From Yoonia sp. F2084L (GTDB taxonomy: Bacteria > Pseudomonadota > Alphaproteobacteria > Rhodobacterales > Rhodobacteraceae), in assembly GCF_023015625.1 (NCBI RefSeq), contig NZ_JALKAH010000001.1:124001-188000 (forward strand): DNA of 64,000 nucleotides. Direction: 5' to 3'. Below are positions 27,374 through 52,315 of this stretch, one piece after another; the first letter of the stretch is position 1; every line of letters begins with the position of its first letter. The notes beneath the pieces were generated by a model. It was not told the origin of the DNA and ran no database searches. It worked only from the letters and a program-made list of their open reading frames with translations. Both the position numbers and the translations under genes were made by a program.

Positions 27374-27389
27374 GCCCCATGCATGGGGC
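27374..27389. promoter_or_regulatory. 16-base perfect palindrome before xylF (possible operator)
   Basis: GCCCCATGCATGGGGC is a perfect two-fold repeat 19-34 bases before the xylF ATG, just upstream of the GGGAGG ribosome-binding site. As it has no loop it suits a dimeric DNA-binding protein better than an RNA hairpin. The ROK regulator encoded divergently is the obvious candidate. A TTGACA box at 27320-27325 may belong to the xylF promoter, though no good -10 partner is evident. Confidence 0.4.
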
Positions 27390-27407
27390 ACACTATGGGA
27401 GGAAAAC

Positions 27408-28436: not shown

Positions 28437-28456
28437 GCTGACGCAGTAAGACATAG

Positions 28457-28491
28457 GCCCCATCCGCCATGTGCGGGTGGGGCTTTCTTTT
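28457..28491 (+). terminator. Terminator-like hairpin between xylF and xylH
   Basis: An 11-base stem GCCCCATCCGC / GCGGGTGGGGC (28457-28467 and 28473-28483, one G-T pair) with a 5-base loop followed by TTTCTTTT. It starts 20 bases after the xylF stop. As xylH follows with no visible new promoter, it most likely causes partial termination or protects xylF mRNA. Confidence 0.82.
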
Positions 28492-28528
28492 AAGTCGGCT
28501 CTGCCACGGGCCATAGGGGAGGAAACCA

Positions 28529-29794
28529 ATGTCGGGCGGACTTGGGAATTTAATCAAAACACTACAGATTGATACGCGATTGCTGGGCATGATCGGTGCC
28601 TTTATCGTGATCTCTTTGGTGTTTCACGTCGCAACCGGGGGCACGTTTCTGACCCCGCGGAACTTATTTACACTGACGCTGCAAACAGCCTCGGTTGCTG
28701 TGATGGCTACCGGCATGGTGTTTGTCATCGTCACCCGCAATATTGATCTGTCCATCGGGTCACTGCTGGGTATCGTCGGTATGCTGATGGGCGTTATTCA
28801 GGTGCAAATCTTGCCCGATATCGTTGGTTTCGGTAGCCCCTCTATCTGGATCATCACAGTCACTATCGGCATTTTGCTGGGTGCCGCGATTGGTGCGTTC
28901 CAAGGGTGGCTGATCGGTTATCTGGTGATCCCATCCTTTATCGTGACACTTGGCGGTCTCTTGATCTGGCGCGGTGGCGCATGGTGGGTATCTAAGGGCA
29001 CAACCATTTCCCCGCTTGACCCGAACTTTGTCATGCTGGGCGGCGCGTCTGGGACAATCGGCGTCACAGCAAGCTGGGCACTGGCGATTGTCGGATCCAT
29101 CCTTACCGTTCTTTTCTTGATCAACACACGTCGCAAGCACGTCAGCCATAACTTTGCAGTTAAGCCGCTTTGGGCCGAATACGCGCTGGGTGCGATCCTT
29201 GTCAGTGCAATCTGCGGGATCACGGCCGTGATGAACGCCTATCTGGTGCCGACCCGCATCTTGGAGCGCCGCTTTGCTGCGGAAGGTTTGGAAATGCCCG
29301 AAGGCTATACCGAGGCTTACGGCTTCCCGATCTCGGTCCTGATCGTTCTGTTTGTGACTATCGCAATGACTATCGTGGCAAAGAAAACCCGTTTCGGTCG
29401 CTATATCTTTGCGATGGGCGGCAACCCTGATGCGGCTGAACTGTCCGGTATCAATACGCGTATGCTGACTGTCAAAGTCTTCGCCTTGATGGGCGCGCTG
29501 ACTGCTATCGCCGCGGTGATCGCTTCGGCCCGGCTTGGCTCTGCCGGTTCATCCTTGGGTGAATTGGACGAACTGCGCGTGATTGCAGCGGCCGTGATTG
29601 GCGGCACCGCATTGGCGGGAGGCGTCGGCACGATTTACGGCGCAATCCTTGGTGCCTTGATCATGCAGGCGCTTGTGTCCGGTATGGGCATGGTGGGCGT
29701 TGATTCACCTTTGCAAAACATGATCGTGGGTGGCGTGCTTATCATCGCTGTCTGGATCGACATCATCTACCGCCGCAAAACAGGAGACGCATAA
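28529..29794 (+). CDS. xylH: D-xylose ABC transporter permease
   Basis: 421 residues with about ten or more membrane helices. NIDLSIGSLLG is the BPD-type sugar permease signature and GGTALAGGVGTIYGAILGALI the conserved C-terminal block. A roughly 60-residue hydrophilic-plus-helix segment around 190-260 is typical for XylH compared with RbsC. It forms the inner-membrane channel for XylF-delivered xylose. The start ATG has GGGGAGGAAACC upstream. Its TAA shares a base with the xylG ATG (TAATG). Confidence 0.94.
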   Translation: MSGGLGNLIKTLQIDTRLLGMIGAFIVISLVFHVATGGTFLTPRNLFTLTLQTASVAVMATGMVFVIVTRNIDLSIGSLLGIVGMLMGVIQVQILPDIVGFGSPSIWIITVTIGILLGAAIGAFQGWLIGYLVIPSFIVTLGGLLIWRGGAWWVSKGTTISPLDPNFVMLGGASGTIGVTASWALAIVGSILTVLFLINTRRKHVSHNFAVKPLWAEYALGAILVSAICGITAVMNAYLVPTRILERRFAAEGLEMPEGYTEAYGFPISVLIVLFVTIAMTIVAKKTRFGRYIFAMGGNPDAAELSGINTRMLTVKVFALMGALTAIAAVIASARLGSAGSSLGELDELRVIAAAVIGGTALAGGVGTIYGAILGALIMQALVSGMGMVGVDSPLQNMIVGGVLIIAVWIDIIYRRKTGDA

Positions 29795-30543
29795 TGAGCA
29801 CCCCACTTTTGGAAATGCGCAATATCTCGATCCATTTTGGCGGGATCAAAGCGGTAGACGATGTGTCCATCGACGTGATGCCGGGTGAAGTTGTGGGCCT
29901 ATTGGGCCATAATGGGGCCGGTAAATCGACCCTCATCAAGATCCTGTCGGGCGCCTACAAGAAGGATGCAGGCGAGATCTACGTGGACGGCAAAAAGGTT
30001 GAGATCAACAGCCCGATTGATGCCCGTCAGCATAACATCGAGACGATTTATCAGACACTTGCCTTGTCCGATAATCTTGATGCCGCGTCGAACCTGTTTC
30101 TGGGCCGCGAGATCACGACCAAGTTTGGTCTGGTCGATGACACAGCCATGGAGGCGGAATCGCGCAAGATCATGGCGCGGTTAAACCCGAATTTCCAACG
30201 CTTCTCTGAACCGGTTCGGTCCTTGTCTGGTGGTCAACGCCAGTCTGTTGCGATTGCGCGCGCAGTCTATTTCAACGCCCGTATCCTGATCATGGACGAA
30301 CCAACAGCGGCCTTGGGCGTGCATGAAACGGCTATGGTTGCGGATCTGATCAAAGAGCTGAAAGCCCAAGGCCTTGGTATCTTCCTGATCAGCCACGACA
30401 CCCGTGAGATGATGGACCTGTGTGACCGTGTATCAGTGATGAAAAACGGCCAACTGATCGGGACTGAGCGGGTCGAGGATGTCACCGAAGATGACATCCT
30501 GTCGATGATCATCATGGGTAAGAATCCTAAAAAGGCAGCGTAA
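29794..30543 (+). CDS. xylG: Xylose ABC transporter ATPase (single nucleotide-binding domain)
   Basis: 249 residues with one complete ABC domain: Walker A GHNGAGKST (38-46), signature LSGGQ (144-148), Walker B ILIMDEP (164-170), and a switch histidine in LISHD. E. coli XylG is a double-domain protein of about 500 residues, so this transporter must use a homodimer of a half-size ATPase, as FrcA-type importers do. TAATG overlaps on both sides couple it to xylH and xylB. Confidence 0.92.
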   Translation: MSTPLLEMRNISIHFGGIKAVDDVSIDVMPGEVVGLLGHNGAGKSTLIKILSGAYKKDAGEIYVDGKKVEINSPIDARQHNIETIYQTLALSDNLDAASNLFLGREITTKFGLVDDTAMEAESRKIMARLNPNFQRFSEPVRSLSGGQRQSVAIARAVYFNARILIMDEPTAALGVHETAMVADLIKELKAQGLGIFLISHDTREMMDLCDRVSVMKNGQLIGTERVEDVTEDDILSMIIMGKNPKKAA

Positions 30544-31982
30544 TGTATATCGGTCTTGATCTGGGCACATCCGGTCTCAAGGCTGTTTTGATCAACGACG
30601 CACAGGCGATTGTGGCAGAAGCCACAGCGCCGCTTGAGGCCACACGGCCTGCGCCCGGTTGGTCGGAACAAGCCCCAGCGACATGGTTGGATGCGGCGGA
30701 TACAGTGATGCAAACGCTTGGCGCGCAGGCGTCACTGGCATCGGTACGCGGCATCGGCTTATCGGGGCAGATGCATGGTGCGACGCTGGTCGATGCGGAT
30801 GATGCGGTCTTGCGCCCATGCATCTTGTGGAATGATACGCGGTCTGCCGTCGAAGCGGCCGCGTTGGACGCTGATCCAAAGTTTCGCGCGCTGACCGGCA
30901 ACATCGTGTTCCCCGGATTTACCGCGCCGAAACTGGCGTGGGTCGCAAGGCATGAACCCGATATTTTCGCCAGAGTCGCACGCGTTCTTTTGCCAAAGGA
31001 TTATCTGCGCCTTTGGCTGACGGGTGAAGCCGTGGCTGAGATGTCGGATGCAGCAGGCACCAGTTGGCTTGATGTAGGCAAACGCGATTGGTCTGATGAG
31101 TTGCTGGCCGCGACAGGCATGACCCGCGCGCAGATGCCACGGCTTGTCGAAGGGTCAGAAGTGTCTGGCCACGTCCGCGATGAATTGGCTGCGCGCTGGG
31201 GGGTGCCAAAAAGCGTCGTCGTTGCGGGCGGGGGCGGAGACAACGCCGCCAGCGCTGTCGGTGTCGGTGTTGTGAAAGCGGGCGATGCATTTGTATCGCT
31301 TGGGACTTCGGGCGTGCTGTTTGCTGCCTCAGACGCCTATCAACCTGATGCCGCAACTGCAGTGCATACGTTTTGTCATGCCTTGCCAGATACTTGGCAT
31401 CAGATGGGCGTGATTTTGGCGGCGGCGGATGCCCTGAACTGGTTTGCCAAGATCACCGACAAACCCTCGGCCACCCTGACGGGTGTTCTCGGTGAACTCG
31501 AAGCGCCCGGTCGGTCGCTGTTCTTGCCCTATCTGGGCGGTGAGCGCACCCCGCACAATGACGCCAGTATTCGTGGGTCTTTCTTGCATCTGGGTCACAG
31601 TACCGATCAGGCCGCAATGACCCGCGCTGTTTTGGAAGGCGTCACACATGCCATCCGCGACAGCTATGATGCGCTTTCGGCCACTGGTACGCAGATCAAC
31701 CGCTTGATTGCTGTCGGTGGTGGGTCAAAATCCGACTACTGGGTGAAGGCGATTGCGACCTCCTTGGACTTACCAATTGAACTGCCCGTTGCCGGTGACT
31801 TCGGTGGCGCATTCGGTGCAGCACGCCTTGGCATGATGGCGGCGACCGGGGCAGGGGTTGAGATTGCAACCGCCCCGCAAATCGCCCGCAGGATTGACCC
31901 CGACACATCACTCACCAGCGCTTTTGTCGAGGCGCACGCAAGATACCGCGCCAGTTATGACGCGTTGAAAGGACTGACATGA
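30543..31982 (+). CDS. xylB: Xylulokinase
   Basis: 479 residues of the FGGY kinase family. The N-terminal phosphate-binding loop is [23 protein letters not shown] is diagnostic of xylulokinases. The C-terminal ATP site is [17 protein letters not shown] with the catalytic aspartate region [12 protein letters not shown]. It phosphorylates D-xylulose to xylulose 5-phosphate, which feeds the pentose phosphate pathway. Its ATG shares a base with the xylG stop, and its own stop overlaps the xylA ATG (ATGA). Confidence 0.95.
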
Positions 31983-33280
31983 CCGATTTTTTCAAAGGCA
32001 TTCCCGCCGTCAAATATGAAGGCACCGCCAGCGACAATGACTTCGCCTTCCGTCATTACAATCCGGACGAGGTCGTGATGGGCAAGGCGCTGAAAGATCA
32101 TCTGCGCTTTGCCGCTGCCTATTGGCATTCCTTCGCGTGGCCTGGTGGCGACCCTTTTGGCGGACAGACCTTTGACCGCCCGTGGTTTGGTGACAGCATG
32201 GATGCGGCGCGGCTTAAGGCCGATGTCGCGTTTGAGATGTTCCAGATTTTAGGTGTGCCGTACTTCTGTTTCCATGACGCGGACGTGCGCCCAGAGGGGG
32301 CGACATTCGCTGAGAACACGAAAAACCTAGAGCAAATCGTTGATTATTTTGGCGAAAAGATGGATGCGACCGGGGTAAAACTGCTCTGGGGCACGGCGAA
32401 CCTGTTTTCGCACAAACGCTTCATGTCTGGGGCAGCGACAAACCCGGACCCTGATGTCTTTGCCTACTCTGCCGCGACGATCAAAACCTGCATGGATGCG
32501 ACCATGAAACTGGGCGGTGAAAACTATGTCCTTTGGGGGGGGCGCGAAGGGTATGAAACGCTACTCAACACTGACATGGGCCGCGAGAGGCAGCAGGCAG
32601 GTGCCATGTTGCAGATGGTCGTCGACTACAAACACAAGACAGGTTTCAAAGGTGCGATCCTGATCGAACCCAAGCCGCAGGAACCCACCAAGCACCAGTA
32701 TGATTATGATGTGGCTACGGTTTATGGCTTCCTCAAGGATTTTGGTCTGGAAGGCGAAGTGCAGGTGAATATCGAGCAAGGACACGCGATCCTGGCAGGC
32801 CACTCGTTTGAACATGAGTTGGCCTTGGCCCGCGAGCTGGGTATCTTCGGGTCCATCGACATGAACCGCAATGACTATCAATCCGGCTGGGACACCGACC
32901 AGTTCCCCAACAATGTGCCCGAGATGGCATTGGCCTATTATGAGGTTCTGCGCGCGGGTGGTTTCACCACTGGCGGCACCAACTTTGACGCGAAACTACG
33001 GCGCCAGTCACTTGATCCAGAAGACCTGATCCTGGCCCATGTTGGCGGGATGGATGCCTGCGCTGCTGGTCTGAAAGCGGCGGCTGCCATGCTGGAAGAT
33101 GGCAAGCTGGAAGCGGCGCGTGATGCGCGCTATGCCGGATGGGACACCGTTGCGGGCAAGGCTTTGCTGAGCAGCGATCTTGATAGTATCGCAGCAAAGG
33201 TAGTCGCAGATGGCATTGACCCCCAACCACGCTCGGGTCGTCAGGAACGGCTGGAAAACGTCGTGAACCGTTACCTCTGA
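31979..33280 (+). CDS. xylA: Xylose isomerase
   Basis: 433 residues, class II length. The ring-opening His99 and its partner Asp102 are in [58 protein letters not shown] and [20 protein letters not shown] (fragments of the metal sites with Glu, His and Asp ligands) are all intact. It converts D-xylose to D-xylulose in the cytoplasm using two divalent metals. It is the last gene of the xyl operon, coupled to xylB through a 4-base overlap. Confidence 0.97.
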
Positions 33281-36749: not shown

Positions 36750-38036
<1,287 letters not shown>

Positions 38037-38051
<15 letters not shown>

Positions 38052-38537
38052 AAAGCGTACAGAACCTGCACATACATCTGTGCGGCCATACTGTTTTTGG
38101 CGGCCCCTGCGCGCGCCGATATGGAGGTCGCGCGCGATCTGATGGAGGCGGGCGAATACGCCGAGGCCCGCGCGCTTTTTGAGGTTTACGCGCGCTCCGG
38201 CAATGCCGAAGCCGAGGAATTGATCGGGGTGATGTACGCCCTTGGCCTTGGCGTCGACCGCGACGACGAGCGGGCCTTTGACTGGTATCTGCGGGCGTCT
38301 TTGAAAGGGCATCCGGGGGCGCAATCGGGGCTAGGGTGGTACTATGAAGTTGGCCGGGGCATCCCCGCGCCTGATATGGTGCGAGCCTATCTTTGGTATG
38401 CTTTGTCGGCAATAGGCGGGGACCCGGACGCGCTGGATTCACTGGAGTTGATCACGCCACGGTTGACGTCGGATGAGCGGGCGCGGGCGGAGGTGCTGGT
38501 GGATGATTACAAGGAGTGGATGTATCCGTTTCGGTGA
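38037..38537 (+). CDS. Sel1-repeat (TPR-like) secreted protein
   Basis: 166 residues with a signal peptide (cleavage after ARA, about residue 27). Helical repeats follow: ARDLMEAGEYAEARALFEVYARSG, then Sel1-type AEELIGVMYALGLGVDRDDERAFDWYLRAS and AQSGLGWYYEVGRGI, spread over about 30-130. Sel1 repeats mediate protein-protein contacts, often in the periplasm. ATG 38037 has a strong AAGGAGG box 7 bases upstream. It is divergent from, and overlaps by 15 bases, the di-heme peroxidase; control of the two is likely shared. Confidence 0.82.
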
Positions 38538-41928: not shown

Positions 41929-42708
41929 CTAGCCAAGCCGCCCATAAAACGTCATTCGCGCGTTCTCGGACAGGGCGACACCGGGCTCTGCATTGTAGGC
42001 CAAAACGGCCAACATGCGGGTCTTGTCGCTTTCATTTGGGGACACACGGTGGATTGAATTGCGGCCACGGAAAAGCACCAGCGTTCCCGGTTCCATTGTC
42101 AAAACCTGCGGTGCCACATCGCCCTGCAACAGCGCCCCGACGCCTTCATAGTTCATCTCGCCCGCATCTGCGTCGCGCAGATCCTTGACATACTCAAAGC
42201 GACCACCTGCATCCGGCTTCTCGATCAGTAATGTGATCGCGAATGTGGAATTGTCGAAATGCCAGCCCAATTCCTGCCCGCGACCGGCGTAGTGGATGTT
42301 GATGGATGACAGCGGGTCGGCGTAGGGGTGCAATTCGGGTTGCCCTGTCACATGGGCGACAAATGCGCGGAAGTCGCGACTGTCATAGAGCGTGCGGAGT
42401 GGGGATTGGGCGTCAATCACATCGTCACAGATGCATCCTTTGGATGAGACGACCTGTCGGTTTTGCGGGTGATCATCGGGGAAATTGGAATCGTGTGGTG
42501 TTAGGTAGACGGAGTGATTTTGCGCACAGAAATACGCTTGCGACAGGCCTGCGGTCGCTTCGTATTTCATTGCTTGCAATGCGGCCGCGCCAATGAAATC
42601 TGGCAATACCAAAACACCTGTTTCATTCAATGTGCGTTGGCATTGATCGGCAAAGTCGCTGTCACTGATAGGGTAGGTGGCGAGGTCGATTGTATCTGCA
42701 ATTGTCAT
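41929..42708 (-). CDS. 2OG-Fe(II) dioxygenase-like protein (PhyH/ArpA-like)
   Basis: 259 residues. The iron triad is His150 and Asp152 (GWHFDNSTF) and His220 (NSIHRVSP), with 2-oxoglutarate-binding Arg231 (KTRMLAVLAYN). The jelly-roll core spans about 125-245. A non-haem oxygenase of the phytanoyl-CoA-hydroxylase type is therefore well supported; the substrate is not known. It is downstream of the TRAP operon on the same strand, but the terminator at 42796-42822 lies between, so it is probably expressed on its own. Confidence 0.82.
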   Translation of the reverse strand: MTIADTIDLATYPISDSDFADQCQRTLNETGVLVLPDFIGAAALQAMKYEATAGLSQAYFCAQNHSVYLTPHDSNFPDDHPQNRQVVSSKGCICDDVIDAQSPLRTLYDSRDFRAFVAHVTGQPELHPYADPLSSINIHYAGRGQELGWHFDNSTFAITLLIEKPDAGGRFEYVKDLRDADAGEMNYEGVGALLQGDVAPQVLTMEPGTLVLFRGRNSIHRVSPNESDKTRMLAVLAYNAEPGVALSENARMTFYGRLG

Positions 42709-42795
42709 AGCGCGTAGGGGTTCCTTGATTTGGCGATCATTGAAACCTGGTTATGTTGACAATGGAAGACCACAGCATTGCACAGGTCAAAAAGA

Positions 42796-42822
42796 AAAGG
42801 GCCGCCCTTGGGACGGCCCTTT
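42796..42822 (-). terminator. Terminator of the TRAP/monooxygenase operon
   Basis: A 9-base perfect stem AAAGGGCCG / CGGCCCTTT (42796-42804 and 42814-42822) with a 9-base loop. On the minus strand it is followed by a T-rich tail (complement of AAAAAGAAAA at 42789-42798). It begins 20 bases after the dctP-type stop. Confidence 0.85.
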
Positions 42823-42842
42823 CGTAGATTGGTTTGGAAACC

Positions 42843-43907
42843 TTAGTTCAGGTCGCTGGCGTAGGCGCTCTCCAACTCGGCCTCGACTTCGGCTGTTGCG
42901 GCCAGCAATGCGTCAAGCATTTCGCTGCCACCGTCCACGTTTTCGCGGAACCATGCGTTCACTGGCTCAGCCGCTGCTGCGAATGCGGCTTTCTCTTCGG
43001 GTGTTGGTACGTAGATGTCGCCGCCACCTTCAACAAAGGCTTCATAGGCTTCGATCGACTTGCGCTTTGGTGATGCGAATGTCGCTTGCTGCAGGGCCGA
43101 GAATCCGTCCACGACAACGCGGCGCAGGTCTTCGGGCATCGCCATGAAGTTTTCATTGCTCATCCACCACAGCGCACCCATGTAAGAATGCCCGTCAAGC
43201 GTGAGGTACTGCAGGCCCGCATCTGGGAATTTCATGCCCATGATGTCGGTGATGCCGTTTGCCGTGCCTTCTACAACGCCAGTTTGCAGCGATGTGAACA
43301 GCTCTGGCCACGGGATCGGTGTCGCGGATGCGCCCATTGCTTCGACCAGTTGCACTGGCAGATCGGCCACAACAGTCCGCAGCTTCAGGCCCGCCATATC
43401 ATCAGGACCCGTCACGCGGCGTTCGGTGTTGGCAAAGTTGCGCCAGCCGCCGGTGTTACCTACTGTCATCAGGCGCAAAGTGTTGCCGCTGTCTTCAAGC
43501 GCTTTGGCGCGCAGAGTGCGGACGAAATCACCAGAGAGTACTGCCTCGGCGACGCGGTCGCTGGACATCAGATAGGGCAGGTCGAGGACTTGCACGTATG
43601 GGAAGATCCCGGCAGCACCACCTGAGGTGGAGATATAGACGTCAATTGACCCTTCAGACACACCTTCGAGGCATTCCGCACCGGTGGCGCAAAGCTGTGT
43701 GCCGATGAAAAGCTCGACCGCGATGCGCCCGTTAGAGGCGGCTTCGACGTAGTTTTTAAAGACAACCAGACCGTCATAGTCTTCGTCATTCTCGTTTGAG
43801 TTGGCGGTCGCGCGGATTGTGAACTCCGTATGGCCGTCAGCCCAAGCAGCCAGCGGTGCCGCCAGCAATGCAGCGGTTGCCGCTATTCTTGTAAGGTGTT
43901 TAATCAT
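42843..43907 (-). CDS. TRAP transporter solute-binding protein (DctP type)
   Basis: 354 residues with a signal peptide cleaved after AWA (about residue 23). GLKLRTVVADLPVQLVEAMGA contains the conserved arginine that clamps the acidic group of the ligand, and TSLQTGVVEGTANGITDI is the other family block. A cysteine pair in LCATGAECLEGV suggests a disulfide. It captures an anionic compound in the periplasm for the DctQM permease just upstream. As the same transcript seems to carry a sulfoquinovose-type monooxygenase set, sulfoquinovose or its glyceride is the proposed ligand; this is inference. Confidence 0.9.
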   Translation of the reverse strand: MIKHLTRIAATAALLAAPLAAWADGHTEFTIRATANSNENDEDYDGLVVFKNYVEAASNGRIAVELFIGTQLCATGAECLEGVSEGSIDVYISTSGGAAGIFPYVQVLDLPYLMSSDRVAEAVLSGDFVRTLRAKALEDSGNTLRLMTVGNTGGWRNFANTERRVTGPDDMAGLKLRTVVADLPVQLVEAMGASATPIPWPELFTSLQTGVVEGTANGITDIMGMKFPDAGLQYLTLDGHSYMGALWWMSNENFMAMPEDLRRVVVDGFSALQQATFASPKRKSIEAYEAFVEGGGDIYVPTPEEKAAFAAAAEPVNAWFRENVDGGSEMLDALLAATAEVEAELESAYASDLN

Positions 43908-43931
43908 TAGTCTCTCCCTAAGTAGTGGTCG

Positions 43932-45503
43932 TTAGTTGATGCCCGGTGGTGGGCTAATGCAAGCGCTAAACCCGATCTCTGGGGCGCAGCCCAAGAAGCC
44001 GGCGAGGTATGGCACTGTCATGGAAATGGCGGGGATATAGGTGATCAGGAAGATCACCAGAATTTCTACCGCAAGGAATGGCAGGATGGCTTTGGCGATG
44101 GTTTCCACCTTTTCGCCCGAGACCGTACTGGCCACGAATAACACCAGCCCCATGGGTGGCGTTGCCAGCCCCACGGTCAGGTTCACGGACATGATGATCG
44201 CGAAGTGAACGGGGTGGACCCCAAGGTCCACAAATATCGGCCCCAGGATCGGGCCGAGGATGATAATGGCTGGGCCTGCGTCGAGGAACATGCCGACGAT
44301 GAAAAGCAGCAAGTTGATCAGGAACAGCAGGATCAGCGGGTTTTCGGACAGCGACAGGATGTAGTCGCTGAGGATCTGTGGCGCGTAGCTGAGGCTGACG
44401 ACGGTTTTGAAAGCCACTGCGGCACCAACCAAGAAAAGGACCGCCGATGTTGCGAGGGCGGAGCGAGTCAGCACCTCGCCGAGGTCTTTCATTTTCATCG
44501 ACCGTAGCACGAAGAAGCTGACGATCAGGGCGTAGGCGACGGCGACGGCAGAGGCTTCGGTTGGAGTGAAGACACCGACGAGGATGCCGCCCAAGATGAT
44601 GATCGGGGTTTGCAGGGGCGCGACCGCCTTTTTGCAGACCATGCGGAAGTCGTTGCTGACGCGGCCACGGTAGCTCATCAGCATGAAATGTGATGCGGCG
44701 AGCAGGGCTGCGAAGACAATCCAGAGGCTGAGGTTATGTACCTTATCGCCAGCCTCATTGATGGACGCGAGGCCCACAAAGGTCGACAAGCCGCTGTAGA
44801 TCGCCATCAGGATGCCCGCGAAGTTTATGCGGATCAGTGCAAAGCTGACCCAATACTCGACGGGCGTGATCTCTTGATTTTTGGTGACGATCCGCTCGGC
44901 CTTGGGCAGGTCGTAGCGGTCAGCCATCAGGCGGACCATGACCATCAGGCCCACGCCAACCATAATGCCTGGCACGATGCCCGCAAGAAATAGCGAGGCC
45001 ACACTTTCGCCCATGACATAGGCGTAGATGATCATGATGCCGGATGGTGGAATGATTGGGCCAATGACGGATGAGGCGGCGGTAATCGCGGCGGCGAATT
45101 TGCGGGTATAGCCGTTTTTCTCCATCGCGGGGATCATGGTGGATCCGATGGCAGAGGTGTCAGCGACAGCAGACCCGGACAGACCCGCAAACAGCATGGA
45201 TGACAGAATGTTCACGTGCGCAAGGCCACCGCGCAGGTGGCCCATGAAGGCTTGGGCGAATTCAACAAGGCGCAGGGTAATACCGCCGCGGTTCATAATC
45301 TCACCCGCCAGCATAAAGAAGGGCAGCGCCATCAACGGAAAGCTGTCCATGCCGTTGTAAAGGTTGCGATAAAGACCAGCAACGACGTTGCGATTGTCGC
45401 CTTCGAGCATGATCAATGCGAAGGGGGATGCCAGCAGGGCAAAGACCACCGGCAGGCCGATCATAATCAGGATGAGGAAGAGAGGGAGGAACCACAAAAG
45501 CAT
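43932..45503 (-). CDS. TRAP transporter large permease (DctM type) with extra insert
   Basis: 523 residues against about 430 for usual DctM proteins. The core is normal: PLMALPFFMLAGEIM, ADTSAIGSTMIPAM, IIPPSGIMIIYAY, GVFTPTEASAVAVAYAL and TVGLATPPMGLVLF. The added length is at about 203-282, containing two additional hydrophobic segments (about 217-245 and 257-276) placed between helices where other members have a short loop. The permease exchanges substrate for sodium together with DctQ. Its start overlaps the dctQ stop (TGATG). Confidence 0.9.
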   Translation of the reverse strand: MLLWFLPLFLILIMIGLPVVFALLASPFALIMLEGDNRNVVAGLYRNLYNGMDSFPLMALPFFMLAGEIMNRGGITLRLVEFAQAFMGHLRGGLAHVNILSSMLFAGLSGSAVADTSAIGSTMIPAMEKNGYTRKFAAAITAASSVIGPIIPPSGIMIIYAYVMGESVASLFLAGIVPGIMVGVGLMVMVRLMADRYDLPKAERIVTKNQEITPVEYWVSFALIRINFAGILMAIYSGLSTFVGLASINEAGDKVHNLSLWIVFAALLAASHFMLMSYRGRVSNDFRMVCKKAVAPLQTPIIILGGILVGVFTPTEASAVAVAYALIVSFFVLRSMKMKDLGEVLTRSALATSAVLFLVGAAVAFKTVVSLSYAPQILSDYILSLSENPLILLFLINLLLFIVGMFLDAGPAIIILGPILGPIFVDLGVHPVHFAIIMSVNLTVGLATPPMGLVLFVASTVSGEKVETIAKAILPFLAVEILVIFLITYIPAISMTVPYLAGFLGCAPEIGFSACISPPPGIN

Positions 45504-46099
45504 CAGTCAGCTCCCGCAAAGTCATCGGCGCTGAGCGGCTTAAGCCGGTCGCCTTGGCCCAGAAGCTTGATCACTTGGCGGATCATCAACTCGATATTCA
45601 CGAGGATCAGAAGGTTCACACCCACCCAGAGCGAGGCGTATTGGTAGTTATTCTGGAACTTGTCACCGCATTTGCCGATCTCGATCCCAAAGGGCCATTT
45701 CAGCGAGGAAGAGCAGCCGCGACCGGAAAGCGTATCGACGTGGTTGTTCAGGCCCCGTTCCCAAGCAATGACAAGGACCCAAAGCATGATGGCAAGCAGG
45801 AGCAGCGTCAGTGCGGCAGAAACAATCCGGGGCAGGGCCCGTTCCAGCATGTCGATGGAGACGAAACCACCCATCCGGTAGGCCAGCGGCGCCATAAGCC
45901 CGGTCATCCAGAGCATACCAAAGCGCGCGCCTTCTTCTGTCCAGTTGGGCGCATCGCTGAGCACATAGCGGAAGAAGACCTGCCCGAGGATCAGGGCGAC
46001 CATAATCGCAAGGGCAATCACTGCGATGACCCTGCCGACGGCAAGGATAGCGGTGTTAAACCGTTCTAGTGGCCACAAAAGGCCAAACAGGACCGACAT
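45503..46099 (-). CDS. TRAP transporter small permease (DctQ type)
   Basis: 198 residues with four membrane helices (about 15-38, 53-70, 92-115 and 155-175) and the DctQ landmark TEEGARFGMLWMTGLMAPLAYRMGGFVSIDML. A cysteine-containing loop (GRGCSSSLKWPFGIEIGKCGDK, about 126-147) is longer than usual. It pairs with the DctM subunit. GGGGAGGAG precedes the ATG. A 104-base gap with three hairpins separates it from the flavin reductase gene upstream, but no terminator T-run follows, so read-through from that gene is likely. Confidence 0.9.
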   Translation of the reverse strand: MSVLFGLLWPLERFNTAILAVGRVIAVIALAIMVALILGQVFFRYVLSDAPNWTEEGARFGMLWMTGLMAPLAYRMGGFVSIDMLERALPRIVSAALTLLLLAIMLWVLVIAWERGLNNHVDTLSGRGCSSSLKWPFGIEIGKCGDKFQNNYQYASLWVGVNLLILVNIELMIRQVIKLLGQGDRLKPLSADDFAGAD

Positions 46100-46121
46100 C
46101 GGCTCCTCCCCTGTTTATGTT

Positions 46122-46201
46122 GCGGGTTTTCCCCGCGTTATTTGGGGCGTTGCCCCCGCCGCTTTGCGGCTCTCCCAGAGTTTTTCTGGCAAGATGATAA
46201 G
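46122..46201 (-). repeat. Three tandem hairpins plus extragenic element copy 2
   Basis: Between the flavin reductase stop and dctQ are three short perfect hairpins: GCGGG/CCCGC (46122-46126, 46132-46136), GGGGC/GCCCC (46144-46148, 46152-46156) and GCCGC/GCGGC (46158-46162, 46166-46170). They are followed by GGCAAGATGATAAG (46188-46201), identical to 36725-36738. Such a block inside a probable operon would affect mRNA stability or relative expression of the two halves. Confidence 0.6.
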
Positions 46202-46203
46202 GT

Positions 46204-46707
46204 TTAAGTCGCGTGAAACTGTCCATACTTGCCAGCGTGAAACACAAGCGGGTCGCCGCCACGGTGGTGTGCTTTGGTCACAAGACCTACGACAATGACG
46301 TGGTCGCCTGCGTCATGGGTGGTCGCGAGGTTGCATTCGAATGTGGCGAGCGCGCCTTCGATAATGGGCATACCGCAGTGTGACAGATGCGTTGGCACGT
46401 CGCTGATTGCGGTTTTTGACTTGATGATCGCGGCACAGATATCACGTTGATCAGCACCCAGAACATGCACAGCAAAACGGCGCGAGCCCGCGAAATGCTC
46501 GAACCGTTTGGATGACTTCGCAGGTGACCACAGCACCAAAGGCGGGTCGAGTGATACGCTCGCAAAGCTATTGGCAACGATGGCGACCGGTCCTTCGGGA
46601 CTGTCTGTTGTGACCACTGTGACACCTGTTACGAATGTGCCAAGCGCGCCGCGAAAGCTGTCGCTGTCGGTACTTGGGTCGAATGTCGCGATAGTGCCTG
46701 CGTCCAT
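46204..46707 (-). CDS. smoA: Flavin reductase, SmoA-like
   Basis: 167 residues of the short-chain HpaC/DszD flavin reductase family. FVTGVTVVTT, VANSFASVSLDPPLVLWSP and FAVHVLGADQRD are the FMN-binding blocks, and GDHVIVVGLV the closing strand. It supplies FMNH2 to the two-component monooxygenase encoded by the third gene of this unit. The true start is ATG 46707, with GGAGG upstream and a TAATG overlap with the aldo/keto reductase gene. In the sulfo-SMO pathway SmoA plays exactly this part. Confidence 0.8.
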   Translation of the reverse strand: MDAGTIATFDPSTDSDSFRGALGTFVTGVTVVTTDSPEGPVAIVANSFASVSLDPPLVLWSPAKSSKRFEHFAGSRRFAVHVLGADQRDICAAIIKSKTAISDVPTHLSHCGMPIIEGALATFECNLATTHDAGDHVIVVGLVTKAHHRGGDPLVFHAGKYGQFHAT

Positions 46708-47603
46708 TATGGGACCTCCGTGCCGCGTGCGGCTGTATAAAGTTCGAACCACATTTCGCGGCTCATGTTGACTTTCAAAGCGTCTGATAGCGCTTTGATA
46801 CGATTTACATTATTGGTGCCCATCACTGGCATGATGTTGGCAGGGTGCGCAAGCAGCCATGCGACGGCAACAGCACCGATATCAACGTCGTTTTTGCGTG
46901 CAACATTGGTCATCACCGTGCGCAGTTCTGCGTTGCCTTGTCCACTGACAAGGCTGCCGCCGCCCAAGGGTGACCATGCCATGATGGGGATGTTGCGTTC
47001 TTGCAGATAGGCGACGTCACCGTTGGTGAACCCCTGGTGTGCAGCCAACGAGACTTCGATCTGATTGGTGATCAGCGGCGTCTTCATTGCCGATTGCAAA
47101 AGCGTCCAGTCGTGCAGCTTGAAGTTGGACACGCCAACCGTGCGGACTTTGCCGGAGGCCACGACTTCGTCGAGTGCCGCACCCGTTTCATGGTGGTCCA
47201 TCATCGGATCAGGGCGGTGGATCAGCAGCGTGTCGATCTTGTCGATGTTCATCAAACGCAGCGAATGGTCGACTGATGCGAGAATATGCGCACGGCTGGT
47301 GTCGTAGTATTTGACCCGCGCGTCGCTGTATCGTCCGGCAGGGGCCACGATATCGCATTTGGTGACGATCTCGATCTGGTCTTTGAGTGCGGGAGCGGCT
47401 TTGAGCGTATTCCCGAGGACTTCTTCTGCTTCATAGCCGCCGTAGATGTCGGCCTGATCCATGGTCGTGATGCCTTGCGCAAGACAGGCTTCGATCTTGG
47501 CTTGGACGTGTGCAACAGATGTGTCGCTGTCATCGCCCAGACGCCACATGCCATAGATGATGCGGCTGAAAGAAAGGTCGGCTGAGATATCAATGCGGTT
47601 CAA
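46707..47603 (-). CDS. smoB: Aldo/keto reductase, SmoB-like (6-oxo-glucose reductase candidate)
   Basis: 298 residues, a full TIM barrel. The catalytic tetrad is Asp49, Tyr54, Lys82 and His129 (TTMDQADIYGG, VTKCDIV, LLIHRPDP). The NADPH-binding end reads PVMGTNNVNRIK. GMWRLGDDSDTSVAHVQAKIE at the start resembles the YdhF-like branch to which SmoB of Agrobacterium belongs. In that pathway the enzyme reduces 6-oxo-glucose, released by desulfonation, to glucose. It is sandwiched between the monooxygenase and flavin reductase genes with 4-base and 1-base overlaps, so all three are translated together. Confidence 0.78.
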   Translation of the reverse strand: MNRIDISADLSFSRIIYGMWRLGDDSDTSVAHVQAKIEACLAQGITTMDQADIYGGYEAEEVLGNTLKAAPALKDQIEIVTKCDIVAPAGRYSDARVKYYDTSRAHILASVDHSLRLMNIDKIDTLLIHRPDPMMDHHETGAALDEVVASGKVRTVGVSNFKLHDWTLLQSAMKTPLITNQIEVSLAAHQGFTNGDVAYLQERNIPIMAWSPLGGGSLVSGQGNAELRTVMTNVARKNDVDIGAVAVAWLLAHPANIMPVMGTNNVNRIKALSDALKVNMSREMWFELYTAARGTEVP

Positions 47604-48757
47604 CGGCGTGGTCCTGTGCCCAATGGGGTCGCTGGAGTTTCGGATGGCACACGCCCGTATTCATGAGGCAATGAGCAGGTTTTGAGGTGTGGCATCACGC
47701 GGCTGCCGAAATGTTCGGCCTCGTCGATATGCGGATACCCCGAGAAGATGAAAGCACGGATGCCCATCTTTTGATAGGCTTCAATTTTGGACATGATCTG
47801 GTCGGTTGAACCCACAAGTGCAGCCCCGCAGCCAGAGCGCGCCCGGCCAACGCCTGTCCAAAGACCGGGCTCGACATAGCCGAATTTATCAGCCAGTTCG
47901 CGCGCTTTGGCTTGGTGTGCGACGCCCAATGAGATGCTGTCATGGGCGCGGTCGCGGATCAGTTTGCCGTATTCATCGTCCAGTTTGGACGCGATGTAAT
48001 CGGCGTATTCTTTGGCTTCTGCTTCGGTATCGCGCACGATCATGTGCACCCGCAGGCCATAGTCGAGTGTGCGGTTGTGGGCTGCGGCGCGGTCGTTCAC
48101 GTCTTTCATGCGCTGTGCCAATTGTTCCATCGGTTCCGGCCACATCAGGTAGACATCGCATTGCGCGCCGCAAAGTTCCAATGCGGCGGGCGAGTAGCCA
48201 CCGAAATACAGCAGCGGGCCGCCGTTTGTTTGGTAGGGGCGGGCTGGGTCCGTGGACAGTTTCGAGATTTGGTAGATGTCACCGTGGTAGCTGACTTCGT
48301 CCTGCGTCCAGCATTTGCGCAGGATTTCGACGACCTCGTGGGATCGCTTATAGCGGAAAGCGCTTTCCGCGACTTCACCGGGGAAGTCAGAGCTGATGAC
48401 GTTCAGGGTCAGCCGACCTTTGAGCATGTGATCGAGCGTCGCGATGGTGCGGGCAAGCATGATCGGTTGCACTTCGCCACAGCGGATGGCGGCGAGGAAA
48501 TTGATCTTTTCGGTTAGCGGCGCCATGCCTGCGACGAAAGACAATGTGTCTTGGCCAACCTGGTAGGAAGACGGCGCGAGGATGTTGCGGAAGCCTTGCT
48601 TCTCTGCGGTCAAAGCGATGTCGCGGCAGTGTTCCCACGACGACCGCAGATCGCCATCGGGCACGCCGAGGAATTGATAATCATCCGAGCAAAGCGCTGA
48701 GAACCAGGAAACTTCTGCTGCATCAAGATCGGCGCTGGTGACAGGCACGATGGTCAT
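47600..48757 (-). CDS. smoC: LLM-class FMNH2-dependent monooxygenase, SmoC/SsuD-like
   Basis: 385 residues of the bacterial-luciferase/alkanesulfonate-monooxygenase family. LTEKINFLAAIRCGEVQPIMLARTIATLDHMLKGRLTLNV is spread over about 83-122 and matches the SsuD barrel core, with YFGGYSPAALELC and VHMIVRDTEAEA later on. From position it should be the sulfoquinovose monooxygenase that cleaves the C-S bond to give sulfite and 6-oxo-glucose. The ATG at 48757 has GGGGAGGAG upstream. It starts a leftward unit (smoC-smoB-smoA, then dctQMP), divergent from a GntR regulator. The sugar-sulfonate substrate is inference; another alkanesulfonate is the alternative. Confidence 0.78.
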   Translation of the reverse strand: MTIVPVTSADLDAAEVSWFSALCSDDYQFLGVPDGDLRSSWEHCRDIALTAEKQGFRNILAPSSYQVGQDTLSFVAGMAPLTEKINFLAAIRCGEVQPIMLARTIATLDHMLKGRLTLNVISSDFPGEVAESAFRYKRSHEVVEILRKCWTQDEVSYHGDIYQISKLSTDPARPYQTNGGPLLYFGGYSPAALELCGAQCDVYLMWPEPMEQLAQRMKDVNDRAAAHNRTLDYGLRVHMIVRDTEAEAKEYADYIASKLDDEYGKLIRDRAHDSISLGVAHQAKARELADKFGYVEPGLWTGVGRARSGCGAALVGSTDQIMSKIEAYQKMGIRAFIFSGYPHIDEAEHFGSRVMPHLKTCSLPHEYGRVPSETPATPLGTGPRR

Positions 48758-48861
48758 TGATTCTCCTCCCCAGAAGTCATGTCTTTCCACTTGCCTAGCA
48801 CGCAAGTATCTGTGCAACAATAGTGTATCAATTTATCGCACAGGCTCAGGGAGGGGTCGCT

Positions 48862-49569
48862 GTGGCAAAAACCTCTGCCTTACCGAAGTTCATTCAGCTG
48901 AGTGAAATGTTGATCCGCGAGATTGCCGCCGGGCATCTGGCTGATGGCGCGCGACTGCCGCCAGAGCGGGATATGGCGGATGATCTGGGAGTGGCCGTTG
49001 GTACGCTGCGTAAGGCGTTGGCAGATGTAGAAGCCAAGGGTTTGCTGGACCGGGTGCAGGGGTCTGGCAACTATGTGCGGCACCGTCCAGCGGTTGATTC
49101 TGTCTATGCATTCTTTCGGCTGGAACTGCTGAAAGGGGGCGGTTTGCCGACGGCGCAGGTGGTGTCCGTGGATCGCTTGACCAAGCCTGCCGGCTTTGCG
49201 CGCTTGGGTGGTGATCCGCAGGGCCACCGGATTATTCGCCTGCGGTCGCTGGATGGTGTGCTGATCGCATTGGAAGAGATCTGGCTGGACGCTGCGGTGC
49301 GCGAGAATGTTGCTGTCTCAGACTTATCTGACTCGCTTTATCATTTTTACCGGCATGAATTGGGCCTAGTCATTGCCTCGGTTGAGGATCGGGTCGGGGT
49401 TGACGCGATGCCAAGCTGGACACCCGATGCATTTCACCTCAAGGCGGGGCAAAACGCAGGGTATATTGAGCGGGTCAGTTGGACCGCCGCGAAAGAACCA
49501 GCAGAATTTTCGCGCACTTGGTATGATGCCAAACGCGCCAACTACATCTCTCGTATGGGCAAGGGTTAG
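48862..49569 (+). CDS. GntR-family regulator with UTRA-type effector domain (SmoD-like)
   Basis: 235 residues. The wHTH (about 8-70) has GARLPPERDMADDLGVAVGTLRKALADVE, spread over 27-55, and GLLDRVQGSGNYV. A HutC/FarR-like effector domain with RIIRLRSLDG and ALEEIWLD follows. GTG 48862 was chosen because GGGAGGGG lies 6 bases upstream; an earlier GTG at 48823 has none. It is divergent from the smoC-like gene with about 100 bases between, the expected place for a local repressor responding to the imported sugar. The Gfo/Idh gene follows after 6 bases. Confidence 0.85.
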   Translation: MAKTSALPKFIQLSEMLIREIAAGHLADGARLPPERDMADDLGVAVGTLRKALADVEAKGLLDRVQGSGNYVRHRPAVDSVYAFFRLELLKGGGLPTAQVVSVDRLTKPAGFARLGGDPQGHRIIRLRSLDGVLIALEEIWLDAAVRENVAVSDLSDSLYHFYRHELGLVIASVEDRVGVDAMPSWTPDAFHLKAGQNAGYIERVSWTAAKEPAEFSRTWYDAKRANYISRMGKG

Positions 49570-49575
49570 AACGAC

Positions 49576-50664
49576 GTGGATACGGTAAACTACGGCCTGA
49601 TTGGCTGCGGCATGATGGGTCGCGAACATATCTTGAACATCAATTTGCTGCCGCAGGGGCGGGTGTCAGTGGTGTACGATCCGGTTGCGGAATTGGCAGA
49701 ATCCGCGGCAACCCTGGCTGAGGATGCGCATGTTGCGGGCTCGCTGGAAGAGCTGCTGGCGTTTGAGGCCCTGGACGCCGTGGTGATCGTCAGCCCCAAC
49801 TATCTGCATGTGCAGCAGTTGCAGCAGATCGCTACGACGCGCCCCATGCCGATCTTATGCGAAAAGCCGCTTTATACGGATCCGGCGGACGCCGCGGTGC
49901 TTGATAAGCTGTTTGAAGGATATGCGCACCCGGTGTGGGTGGCGATGGAGTATCGTTATATGCCGCCGGTGGCCGCTTTGATCGCGCAGGCCGAACAGGC
50001 GACCGGCGGGATCAAGATGTTGACGATCCGCGAACACCGCTTTCCGTTTTTGCCCAAGATTGGCGACTGGAATCGTTTTAACGCCAAGACAGGTGGTACG
50101 TTGGTGGAAAAATGCTGTCACTTCTTTGATCTGATGCGGTTGATTTTGGACGATGAACCAATACGGGTCATGGCCAGTGCAGGGCAATCGCTAAACCACA
50201 TTGATGAGCGTTATGACGGGGAAGCGCCTGACATTTGGGACAATGGCTATGTGATTTTGGATTTTGCGAAGGGAAGCCGCGCGATGCTTGAGCTTTGTAT
50301 GTTCGCCGAAGGATCAAAGTACCAAGAAGAAATCAGCGCGGTTGGCCCCAAAGGCAAGATTGAAGCACTTGTGCCGGGGCCTGGGCGGTTTTGGCCCAAG
50401 CTGTTAGGTACGCCACCGGTGCCGCAGATGATCATCAGCCCGCGTGCGCCCAAAGGCCCGTATGTGTCAGAGATTCCGGTCGATCCCGCGTTGCTAGAGG
50501 CAGGTGACCATAACGGATCGACCTTCTATCAGCATCAGCGCTTTAACGCCGTCGTGCGAGGCGAAGGCGAGGTTGAGGTGACCTTGGCCGATGGGGCCAA
50601 GGCGATTGCTATTGGATTGGCCGCACAAGAAAGTGCGCGCACAGGGCAAGCGGTGACGCTTTAG
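49576..50664 (+). CDS. Gfo/Idh/MocA-family NAD-binding protein (candidate NAD-dependent sulfoquinovosidase)
   Basis: 362 residues. The Rossmann motif GLIGCGMMGREH (7-18), the EKP motif ILCEKPLY with Lys97, and a histidine in KCCHFFDLM (His182) are typical of Gfo/Idh/MocA enzymes. Most are sugar dehydrogenases. A recently defined branch (glycoside hydrolase family 188) uses a bound NAD to hydrolyse sulfoquinovosides, and such genes occur at sulfoquinovose loci. No GH31 sulfoquinovosidase is present here, so this protein could fill that gap. Family membership is sure; the specific role is a proposal. The start is GTG 49576 directly after the GntR gene. Confidence 0.85.
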   Translation: MDTVNYGLIGCGMMGREHILNINLLPQGRVSVVYDPVAELAESAATLAEDAHVAGSLEELLAFEALDAVVIVSPNYLHVQQLQQIATTRPMPILCEKPLYTDPADAAVLDKLFEGYAHPVWVAMEYRYMPPVAALIAQAEQATGGIKMLTIREHRFPFLPKIGDWNRFNAKTGGTLVEKCCHFFDLMRLILDDEPIRVMASAGQSLNHIDERYDGEAPDIWDNGYVILDFAKGSRAMLELCMFAEGSKYQEEISAVGPKGKIEALVPGPGRFWPKLLGTPPVPQMIISPRAPKGPYVSEIPVDPALLEAGDHNGSTFYQHQRFNAVVRGEGEVEVTLADGAKAIAIGLAAQESARTGQAVTL

Positions 50665-50924
50665 CCTTCGGCGCGATCAGCCTGCGCAAATCCAAAGCAG
50701 TTTGTGCCTTCGCATGTGACCATTTCAATCGGAACGTGCAGGTCGCCGTTTTCAGTTTTGATGATATATGCGTTTTCTTCGAACCCTGCGAATTCGCCGG
50801 ATACGGTCAAGTCATGCTTCTCAAACGTCAGCGTGATTTCTCCTGCGCTGGCGTTTGAGGGGACCATGAGGACCAGTGTGCCCAAGACCAAAGAACCAAT
50901 TTTACTATTTACTGTTTTTACCAT
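50661..50924 (-). CDS. Small secreted hypothetical protein
   Basis: 87 residues from ATG 50924 (a GTG three codons earlier is possible). There is a signal peptide with cleavage after NASA-GE (about residue 28). The mature 60 residues are two or three strands, ITLTFEKHDLTVSGEFAGFEENAYIIKT, followed by IPIEMVTCEGTNCFG with two cysteines likely forming a disulfide. This looks like the small N-terminal domain found in front of larger roseobacter periplasmic OmpA-linked binding proteins, but nothing follows here, so it may be a free-standing domain or a remnant. It converges on the Gfo/Idh gene with a 4-base overlap. Confidence 0.6.
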   Translation of the reverse strand: MVKTVNSKIGSLVLGTLVLMVPSNASAGEITLTFEKHDLTVSGEFAGFEENAYIIKTENGDLHVPIEMVTCEGTNCFGFAQADRAEG

Positions 50925-51113: not shown

Positions 51114-51974
51114 CTAAGTTACCAGAATCTCAATCCCGTCGGCACCTATATCGAATTCCGCGGAATCGATTTGCCACAAGTTCTTGAGCAACGATGCAGA
51201 TACAGTGCGATGGTCGGGGGTGTGCACAAGATCCTCCTCAACAAGTGCTGTCAGAGATGGCCGCTCGCCGCTTAACCCGTATTTGACACTGCCACCTGCG
51301 ATGAAAAGTGCGGCTGCGGTGCCGTGGTCTGTGCCTGCCGGTGCATTCTCTCGGGCGGTCCGCCCAAATTCAGAAAGTGTCACGATGCTGACCCTATCCC
51401 ACAGCCCGATGTCGGGCAGTGCTGAACTGAAACTGGCAATCGACTGGGTCAGATCATTCAGCAAATCGCGATGCTGATCTGGCTAGTTGTCATGCGTGTC
51501 ATAACCATCCTGCACAACCTTGACGACAGAGAGATCAACGCGCGCATCCAACAAACGGGTGGCCGCGCGCAGCTGCGTGCCCAATGCGCTGTCCGGGAAA
51601 TCAAAGTGACGTGCGGCACTGTTTTGCAATCGTTTGAGAATTGCGCCTGCTGTTATCTGTGCACTGTCATAGGTTTCCAGCACATGAGAGTGAGGGGTGT
51701 TCGCAGCCTTGGGCCGGACAGGGTGCATGGTGCCTGGCAGGTTATCGAAAGTTTCAAAGAACACCTCCTCGTCGCGCATCGCTGAAAATCGCCCTGCGCC
51801 ATCCTGCGGCCGCATCGCCCTACCCAGCACAAGCCCGTCAGCATCGGCAGCCCTTTGCGGATGCTGCGCGGGCCCTGCCGAAACTCACCCTTGGCGCACC
51901 TGGCTTTCGGCGCTGCGTCCGACGTTCCAAATCTCGGTTGCGCGGAAGTGGGACCGATTTGGATTGGGATATCC
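51114..51974 (-). pseudogene. Broken DUF1501-family gene (two in-frame stops, 5' end lost)
   Basis: On the minus strand one continuous frame carries DUF1501 landmarks: GYPNPNRSHFRATEIWN (near 51974-51924), VVKVVQDGYDTHDN, then RVSIVTLSEFGRTARENA and GTDHGTAAALFIAGG. It is interrupted by TGA at 51885-51887, where homologous proteins have the tryptophan of a GW pair, and by TAG at 51483-51485, where HDN*PDQHRDLL suggests an original CAG. Both are single transitions. The first 80-90 codons expected upstream are not recognisable. DUF1501 proteins are exported, Tat-type proteins of unknown role, often next to DUF1800 genes; no DUF1800 gene is present. Confidence 0.75.
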
Positions 51975-52315
51975 GGTGGCGAAAGGATCGTGCATAATAG
52001 TGTCAGTTTTTCGGTTAAGGGCGTTGCCGTTTCGACCATTTCCTTCAACCACCAACCCGGTCACCAAGGCTGCCGCGTGTTCAGCATCAGAACGGGGCAA
52101 TGCCCATTCCGCGCAACACGCGCAGAACGGTGATGCCATGCATATTCTGCAACATGCGGTCAGGGATCATGCAGCTGTCATGCCAGATGCACGTTTCAGT
52201 AGCCCGTCTTTGGGATTTGCAGACCAGTCAACGTTCCGGGTGTATTCGCTCAGCGACGGGCCAATGAGATTGAGATCATATGCAGGCGGGCTTTGGCATG
52301 CGGATGATTGGCGTG
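51975..52315. other. Decayed non-coding stretch between the DUF1501 pseudogene and the CheW gene
   Basis: About 340 bases hold no convincing gene. On the minus strand a 50-codon open tail with protein-like composition (…AYDLNLIGPSLSEYTRNVDW…) runs from about 52320 to a stop near 52180, and an unrelated short frame follows toward the pseudogene. They look like leftovers of an older gene rather than functional sequence. I see no promoter or terminator here. Confidence 0.45.

Follow-up and report, generated by a model that had tools for sequence, protein, structure and literature searches.

Sulfoquinovose (SQ), a sugar that carries sulfur and occurs in the membranes of plants and algae, is desulfonated oxidatively in Agrobacterium by the sulfoquinovose monooxygenase pathway (sulfo-SMO, also called sulfo-ASMO; SmoA to SmoI). 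Sulfo-SMO is also already in print for bacteria of the Roseobacter clade (Liu L. et al. 2023 ISME J, as cited in PMC10755693), and the main text of PMC10755693 describes the GH188 sulfoquinovosidases as near-universal in Roseobacter sulfo-SMO clusters. Here we examine a 64,000-nucleotide stretch of DNA from Yoonia sp. F2084L (positions 124,001 to 188,000 of NZ_JALKAH010000001.1, forming part of contig C4 in a genome of 3.88 Mb; hereafter the window), in which the genes at 42843–50664 had been predicted to form a sulfo-SMO locus with a tripartite ATP-independent periplasmic (TRAP) transporter. We conclude that this locus very probably encodes the uptake and oxidative desulfonation of SQ glycosides. 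The proposed pathway rests on gene content, orthology, active-site conservation, repeated synteny and the co-occurrence of DctP, the TRAP solute-binding protein, with two different SQ pathways; its less familiar part is the TRAP importer.

Read along the minus strand from 48757 to 42843, the gene order is smoC-smoB-smoA-dctQ-dctM-dctP, with a GntR/UTRA gene and then a gene of the Gfo/Idh/MocA fold diverging from smoC on the plus strand. Pfam matches bear out each component named in the original prediction, namely a luciferase-like monooxygenase (LLM; PF00296 in a profile search), an aldo/keto reductase, a flavin reductase, dctQMP and a divergent GntR regulator, and the adjoining DctP, DctQ and DctM all exceed their own Pfam cut-offs. 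The tight overlap claimed for the three enzyme genes is also seen (SmoC/SmoB, 4 nucleotides; SmoB/SmoA, 1 nucleotide), and DctQ and DctM overlap by 1 nucleotide. The predicted range held for the genes it named; 49576–50664 had been included without interpretation, and is the GH188 homologue described below. By alignment to relatives smoC starts at ATG 48757 and not at TTG 48820, smoA starts at ATG 46707, and the GntR gene probably starts at GTG 48862, preceded by ggagggg. Because of the gene overlaps, the absence of minus-strand terminator-like sites from the 104 bases that separate smoA from dctQ, and a 13-pair hairpin directly behind dctP, the six genes from smoC to dctP are likely to form one transcript. 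The next-longest terminator-like site in 42500–50800 has 7 pairs, and such sites number 14 in this range versus 7.8 ± 2.4 in shuffled sequences.

The enzymes identify the pathway. SmoC scores 736 and 707 bits against the PDB chains 7olf and 7oh2, versus 205 bits for 7jv3 and 190 bits for SsuD, and its 244.9 bits to the SsuD model TIGR03565 fall under the cut-off of 518.2; an identity as an SsuD, SfnG or MsuD-type monooxygenase is ruled out by these scores. Judged by eye, 7olf is near-identical to the smoC product of an Agrobacterium locus (L220), and from this by-eye likeness to the L220 genes we take 7olf and 7oh2 to be SmoC and 7bby to be SmoB. Clustering with SsuD had been set beforehand as a test of the prediction, and both scores and phylogeny place the monooxygenase with Agrobacterium SmoC: in a quick maximum-likelihood tree without bootstrap, the window SmoC lies in a clade of 36 rows that holds all nine Agrobacterium-type loci (Shimodaira–Hasegawa-like approximate likelihood ratio test, SH-aLRT, 96), a SquD-like group and Escherichia coli SsuD lie outside this clade, and the SmoC group as a whole has a support of 84. 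SmoB reaches 415 bits to 7bby and 7bbz, the next aldo/keto reductase scoring 210 bits. The orthology of SmoC and SmoB to the Agrobacterium proteins thus upholds the sulfo-SMO reading. SmoA, whose gene overlaps smoB, is assigned at family level, and its identity among relatives falls into two ranges, about 72–95% and 38–57%. By SmoC identity, Yoonia (95%) and Loktanella (93%) supply the nearest named relatives. The smoC-smoB-GntR set is shared by the Agrobacterium locus L220, whose GntR product is 51% identical to that of the window and which also has a GH31 gene and ATP-binding cassette (ABC) transporter genes; the window has no ABC or GH31 match to the Agrobacterium or Marinovum references, and carries TRAP and GH188 genes instead. 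The ABC importer and GH31 are traits of the Agrobacterium type locus, not of sulfo-SMO chemistry.

The product of 49576–50664 is, by sequence, a GH188 sulfoquinovosidase homologue and is predicted to be NAD+-dependent. It scores 379 bits to 8qc3 and 377 bits to 8qc2, which Kaur et al. 2023 (PMC10755693) give as ArSqgA and FlSqgA, two GH188 sulfoquinovosidases, and 522 bits to 8zn9, a chain without a stated function. The residues K107, Y136, R166, L170, K172, E189, H193 and H321 contact SQ in ArSqgA according to the main text of PMC10755693, R166, L170 and K172 forming the GH188 sulfonate site (residue roles as given in the portions consulted of PMC10755693 and PMC11465081); the window protein matches all eight with K97, Y126, R155, L159, K161, E178, H182 and H312 (by our count the chain numbering runs 13 higher than the published residue numbers). 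The eight residues are conserved in 171 of 171 rows, a set that includes the window and SquD-type loci, and in 21 of 21 rows from the SmoC-less loci introduced below (L226–L247), with H321 unaligned in one row of each set and some duplicates among the rows counted. A plain inositol dehydrogenase (IolG) was considered and rejected, the IolG match being 104.8 bits against a cut-off of 355 and the matches to 8qc2, 8qc3 and 8zn9 being 377–522 bits. Since PMC10755693 already reports sulfo-SMO together with GH188 in Roseobacter bacteria, this part of the locus is known biology.

Sequence alone cannot give substrate specificity, and a sulfofucose pathway is known in a Paracoccus (PMC12421959, in part), so that the locus might act on a related sulfosugar or on an alkanesulfonate and not on SQ. 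We give this the least credence of the alternatives considered here, as SmoC and SmoB are closely orthologous to their Agrobacterium counterparts, the GH188 homologue retains both the sulfonate site and the catalytic residues, and the sulfofucose pathway, as far as described in the same portion of that paper, has a different enzyme set and an ABC importer.

The TRAP genes were followed through a survey of 192 loci with a SmoC-like gene, a chosen sample made up of 12 plasmid records (of 29), 100 genome stretches picked for genus spread among the matches listed, and 80 named genome loci, the best 80 of 581 confirmed matches. Removal of 12 loci with less than 550 bits to SmoC (the SquD-like group) left 180, and removal of 7 duplicates left 173 distinct loci. 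TRAP genes homologous to those of the window accompany SmoC in 101 of these, ABC genes in 30 and none of the three importer types searched in 34, the remaining 8 being cut by a contig end. A TRAP system in place of the ABC transporter, as predicted for the window, is the commonest arrangement among the sampled relatives, and its recurrence in so many distinct loci argues that the gene arrangement is not due to chance. GH188 is present in 97 of the 101 TRAP loci. The ABC loci comprise 21 of the Marinovum type and 9 of the Agrobacterium type, the latter with GH31 in 9/9 and GH188 in 0/9; some of the 34 loci hold other ABC genes (for example L148, L149 and L052), and L172 and L175 have Marinovum-type neighbours. 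The TRAP version of the SmoC locus also occurs in Rhizobium (L034, L171). The SmoC tree has 91 rows (82 SmoC, 8 SquD-like and SsuD), the 82 being all ABC loci, every third TRAP locus, every second locus with none of the three importers, and the window, with cut-off loci excluded; the outgroup branches are long, as flagged by the tree program. On it the TRAP/ABC label needs 11 changes, and 6 changes between TRAP and all other labels are forced by well-supported branches, from which we infer that the importer was exchanged several times around constant enzymes.

Two side observations concern importer genes. Locus L042, on a plasmid of Rhizobium sp. WSM4643, has a SquD-like monooxygenase (51% to SmoC), a LacI regulator and, nearby, ABC genes 78–90% identical to the Agrobacterium smo ABC genes, that is, a similar importer with a monooxygenase of another group. 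DctM among relatives comes in two lengths, about 490–523 amino acids (as in the window, 43932–45503) and about 428–430 amino acids, and family models break in the long form at about residue 237–246, as if an insertion were present.

What links the importer to SQ is the distribution of DctP. We searched 390 mutually related genomes of the order, drawn evenly, with E limits of 1e-60 for SmoC, 1e-80 for DctP and 1e-90 for GH188, and three weak SmoC matches (G024, G114, G254) were dropped. SmoC was found in 194 genomes, GH188 in 215 and DctP in 155; SmoC is present in 132 of the 155 genomes with DctP, and SmoC or GH188 in 154. All 22 genomes that have GH188 and no SmoC carry DctP. Of the 23 DctP loci without SmoC, 22 were examined (L226–L247; that of genome G240 was left out). 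They hold genes for an SQ-isomerase-like protein, a PfkB kinase and a LacD-type aldolase, all three in 19 and at least two in 21, together with GH188 (21), an aldose epimerase (17), an aldehyde dehydrogenase (12) and a DeoR regulator (14). This second conserved type of locus in Rhodobacterales (for example L232, 713–13481) brings together DeoR, the same TRAP system, a MauG-like protein, kinase, aldolase, isomerase, GH188, aldose epimerase and aldehyde dehydrogenase; in L232 the sole NCBIfam match of the isomerase is the sulfoquinovose isomerase SftI, and the aldolase passes the tagatose-1,6-bisphosphate aldolase model. No SQ-isomerase-like gene was found in any of the 193 sequences of the SmoC-survey set, the window included. 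The SmoC-less loci look like an SQ pathway of the second sulfo-Embden–Meyerhof–Parnas type (sulfo-EMP2, as named in the portions consulted of PMC12890257 and PMC9594981), with putative enzyme assignments. In a quick DctP tree without bootstrap (51 of 100 SMO-type rows, all 22 SmoC-less rows and 3 separate rows), the two pathway types are interleaved, with 5 changes on the whole tree. As one TRAP family stands beside two unrelated SQ chemistries, DctP would most plausibly bind SQ or its glycoside.

In the pathway that we propose, the TRAP proteins DctP, DctQ and DctM would use an ion gradient to import sulfoquinovosyl glycerol, SQ or both, and the GH188 enzyme, going by its family and conserved residues, would release SQ through transient oxidation at C3 by a bound NAD+. 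SmoA, from its family and gene place, would produce the FMNH2 with which SmoC, as in Agrobacterium, would split the C–S bond with O2 to give sulfite and 6-oxo-glucose, and SmoB would then reduce the latter to glucose. The GntR protein is presumably the local regulator.

Several observations weigh against this interpretation. DctP is missing from 62 of the 194 SmoC genomes, the SmoC loci include the 34 of 173 without any of the three importer types nearby and the 30 with ABC genes, and one genome (G240) has DctP with neither SmoC nor GH188. The L232 isomerase, at 241.5 bits, stays below the SftI cut-off of 700; well-supported branches of the DctP tree force only 2 pathway changes; and the sampled genomes are related, so that the co-occurring cases cannot be counted as independent of one another. 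The enzymes might thus degrade SQ while the TRAP system, a hitchhiking neighbour, imports some other organic acid or sulfonate, SQ entering by another transporter, as the loci with ABC genes or none of the three types and the genomes without DctP would allow. We consider this improbable, as the TRAP genes would hardly have hitchhiked in two SQ operons unrelated to each other, DctP goes with SmoC or GH188 in all but one of its genomes, and other SQ-pathway genes lie beside it in 21 of the 22 SmoC-less loci; in G076, G329 and G083 the TRAP genes are on another contig than smoC, which fits the alternative, yet DctP is still kept there. The predicted structure of DctP cuts both ways: an AlphaFold model (mean predicted local distance difference test score, 82.9; predicted template modelling score, 0.81) has the isethionate-binding protein IseP (8t9t/8te9, 24% identity) as rank 1 in a Foldseek search of the PDB, in favour of our reading, but the lead is tiny (1.5e-21 vs 1.5e-20 at rank 3, where the template modelling score is higher), and identity of DctP to the 50 solved structures that Foldseek listed is 20–28%.

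The fate of the sulfite and the control of the operon supply the remaining objections. No PF03404 gene (Mo-co_dimer, SorA/SoxC-type) and no PF03916 gene (NrfD family, which a SoeC-like subunit may escape) was found in the window's own genome (G000), whose single PF03601 gene and five PF01925 genes all lie on contigs other than that of the window. This would fit the use of sulfite as a sulfur source, and SmoC has its fold family and a flavin-reductase partner in common with SsuD, so that the operon could be an SsuD-like system for sulfur scavenging under sulfur starvation and not one for a carbon source. We find this very hard to favour, since the monooxygenase is orthologous to SmoC, not SsuD, and SmoB and the glycosidase would make glucose available. 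As regards control, the divergent region 48758–48861 gave no sigma-70-like promoter in a scan of 42500–50800, whose single site, at 44938, compares with 4.1 ± 2.3 in shuffles. A candidate operator, ATTGAT-N4-ATCAAT, occurs with at most 2 mismatches in 76 of 173 smoC upstream regions versus 8 of 865 random stretches from the same loci, mostly 59–66 bases before smoC, and its best site in the Agrobacterium locus L220 has 3 mismatches. It is not kept in the window, where the best site has 5 mismatches, and for this reason we claim no operator there. The window palindrome CTTGC-N7-GCAAG, tried as an operator, is outside the 25 inverted repeats most common to relatives.

DctP has features that set its family apart. 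Near-invariant among 132 family rows, which contain some duplicates, are R118, R145, R156, R177, R282, H240, four tryptophans and the cysteine pair C73/C79. In the alignment R177 corresponds to the arginine of a GLKIRT-type stretch conserved across all five TRAP proteins compared, and it is presumably the canonical anion-binding arginine.

A MauG-like gene and a Sel1-repeat gene accompany the TRAP genes. Of the 101 TRAP loci, 53 have the former in their surroundings and 55 the latter, and neither turns up around any of the 72 other SmoC loci; in the window the pair occupies 36750–38537, 4.3–4.8 kb behind dctP. The MauG-like gene is also found in 21 of the 22 SmoC-less DctP loci. At a limit of 1e-140, set after a gap was noticed in the match list, a strong MauG-like orthologue is present in 129 genomes, 123 of them with DctP and 6 without, and 32 DctP genomes have no strong orthologue. 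The MauG-like gene goes with the importer, not with the O2-using monooxygenase SmoC, and since it also lies beside sulfo-EMP2-like genes, peroxide clearance for SmoC is insufficient as an explanation of the protein. Simple inheritance of a shared neighbourhood may explain the link to the TRAP genes. A bolder idea, tempting and in our view doubtful, is that the SQ-glycoside TRAP family moves as a module between sulfo-SMO and sulfo-EMP2, being swapped repeatedly with ABC importers, and brings a MauG-like periplasmic partner directly used in sulfosugar use.

A second, paralogous MauG-like di-haem gene lies at 23159–24475 (plus strand) and adjoins a gene for an FG-GAP/UnbV_ASPIC protein (24472–25938). 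Other neighbours include a gene just behind the dctP terminator (41929–42708, minus) of the HalD-like Fe(II)/2-oxoglutarate halogenase or oxygenase family (PF23169, 60.4 bits); sugar ABC transporter genes followed by xylB- and xylA-like genes, so judged by eye (27336–33280, plus); and three overlapping short frames at 51114–52048 (minus), which may be a broken gene (8 stops interrupt any one frame drawn across them), the frame 51114–51464 (minus) matching only positions 269–352 of the 390 of DUF1501. Features of the locus are collected in Table 1.

Table 1. Features of the putative SQ locus and its companions, in window coordinates.
Feature	Position	Strand	Basis
smoC: FMNH2-dependent SQ monooxygenase, predicted SQ to 6-oxo-glucose + sulfite	47600..48757	-	PDB 7olf/7oh2 scores; tree with Agrobacterium SmoC
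smoB: aldo/keto reductase, predicted 6-oxo-glucose to glucose	46707..47603	-	PF00248; 415 bits to PDB 7bby/7bbz
smoA: flavin reductase, putative FMNH2 supply; family-level assignment only	46204..46707	-	PF01613, 126.6 bits
dctQ: TRAP small permease subunit	45503..46099	-	PF04290
dctM: TRAP large permease subunit, long form, 523 amino acids	43932..45503	-	PF06808, TIGR00786
dctP: TRAP solute-binding protein, probable ligand SQ or sulfoquinovosyl glycerol	42843..43907	-	PF03480; genome co-occurrence
Intrinsic-terminator-like hairpin behind dctP	42795..42823	-	13-pair stem and T-rich tail
Putative divergent promoter/operator region of smoC and the GntR gene, from position	48758..48861	.	Direct reading
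SmoD-like GntR/UTRA regulator	48862..49569	+	PF00392 and PF07702
GH188 NAD+-dependent sulfoquinovosidase (SqgA-like), predicted to free SQ from its glycoside	49576..50664	+	SqgA structures; SQ-contact residues
MauG-like di-haem protein	36750..38069	-	PF03150; linked to the TRAP family in relatives
Sel1-repeat protein, companion of the MauG-like gene in SMO-type relatives	38037..38537	+	PF08238

We found no description of a TRAP importer for SQ in open-licence papers, a search for which figures, supplements and Liu L. et al. 2023 were outside the scope. Within that scope, transport, permease, ABC, importer and TRAP are absent as word starts from the main text of PMC10755693, and the word TRAP is absent from the main texts of PMC12890257, PMC9594981 and PMC13372026; the link may well appear in Liu L. 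et al. 2023 or in the figures or supplements of PMC10755693. In the portions consulted, SQ and a TRAP transporter are mentioned together in PMC10507020, on a taurine-respiring gut bacterium, SQ is named once in PMC6386719, on taurine use by gut bacteria, and ABC transporters serve SQ uptake in PMC12421959 (2025), where 'trap' stands for chromatography or ion trapping. In the literature searched, then, the degradation enzymes of marine Rhodobacterales are known and their uptake of SQ is not described. If the TRAP assignment is true, SQ uptake would be driven by an ion gradient, and DctP, accompanied by SmoC or GH188 in all but 1 of the 155 sampled genomes that have it, could serve as a simple marker of SQ use in marine genomes.

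Of the described systems, the Agrobacterium sulfo-SMO locus resembles that of the window in its orthologous SmoC, SmoB and GntR proteins, in a flavin reductase of the same family and in a regulator divergent from smoC, whereas the window has TRAP in place of ABC genes and GH188 in place of the GH31 sulfoquinovosidase. The Roseobacter-clade sulfo-SMO clusters with GH188, as presented in the main text of PMC10755693, have the same enzymes and belong to the same bacterial group, and the window fits among them. Sulfo-EMP2, with its SftI/SqvD-type isomerase, PfkB kinase and aldolase, is alike in that the relatives carry the same TRAP family and GH188 alongside, often with an aldose epimerase; it differs from the window locus, where its enzymes were not found, and yields a C3 sulfonate, not sulfite. 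The isethionate transporter of IseP is of the same class and supplies the top Foldseek match for DctP, but its ligand is a C2 sulfonate, compared with the sulfosugar proposed here, and DctP forms a subfamily of its own with the conserved cysteine pair C73/C79.

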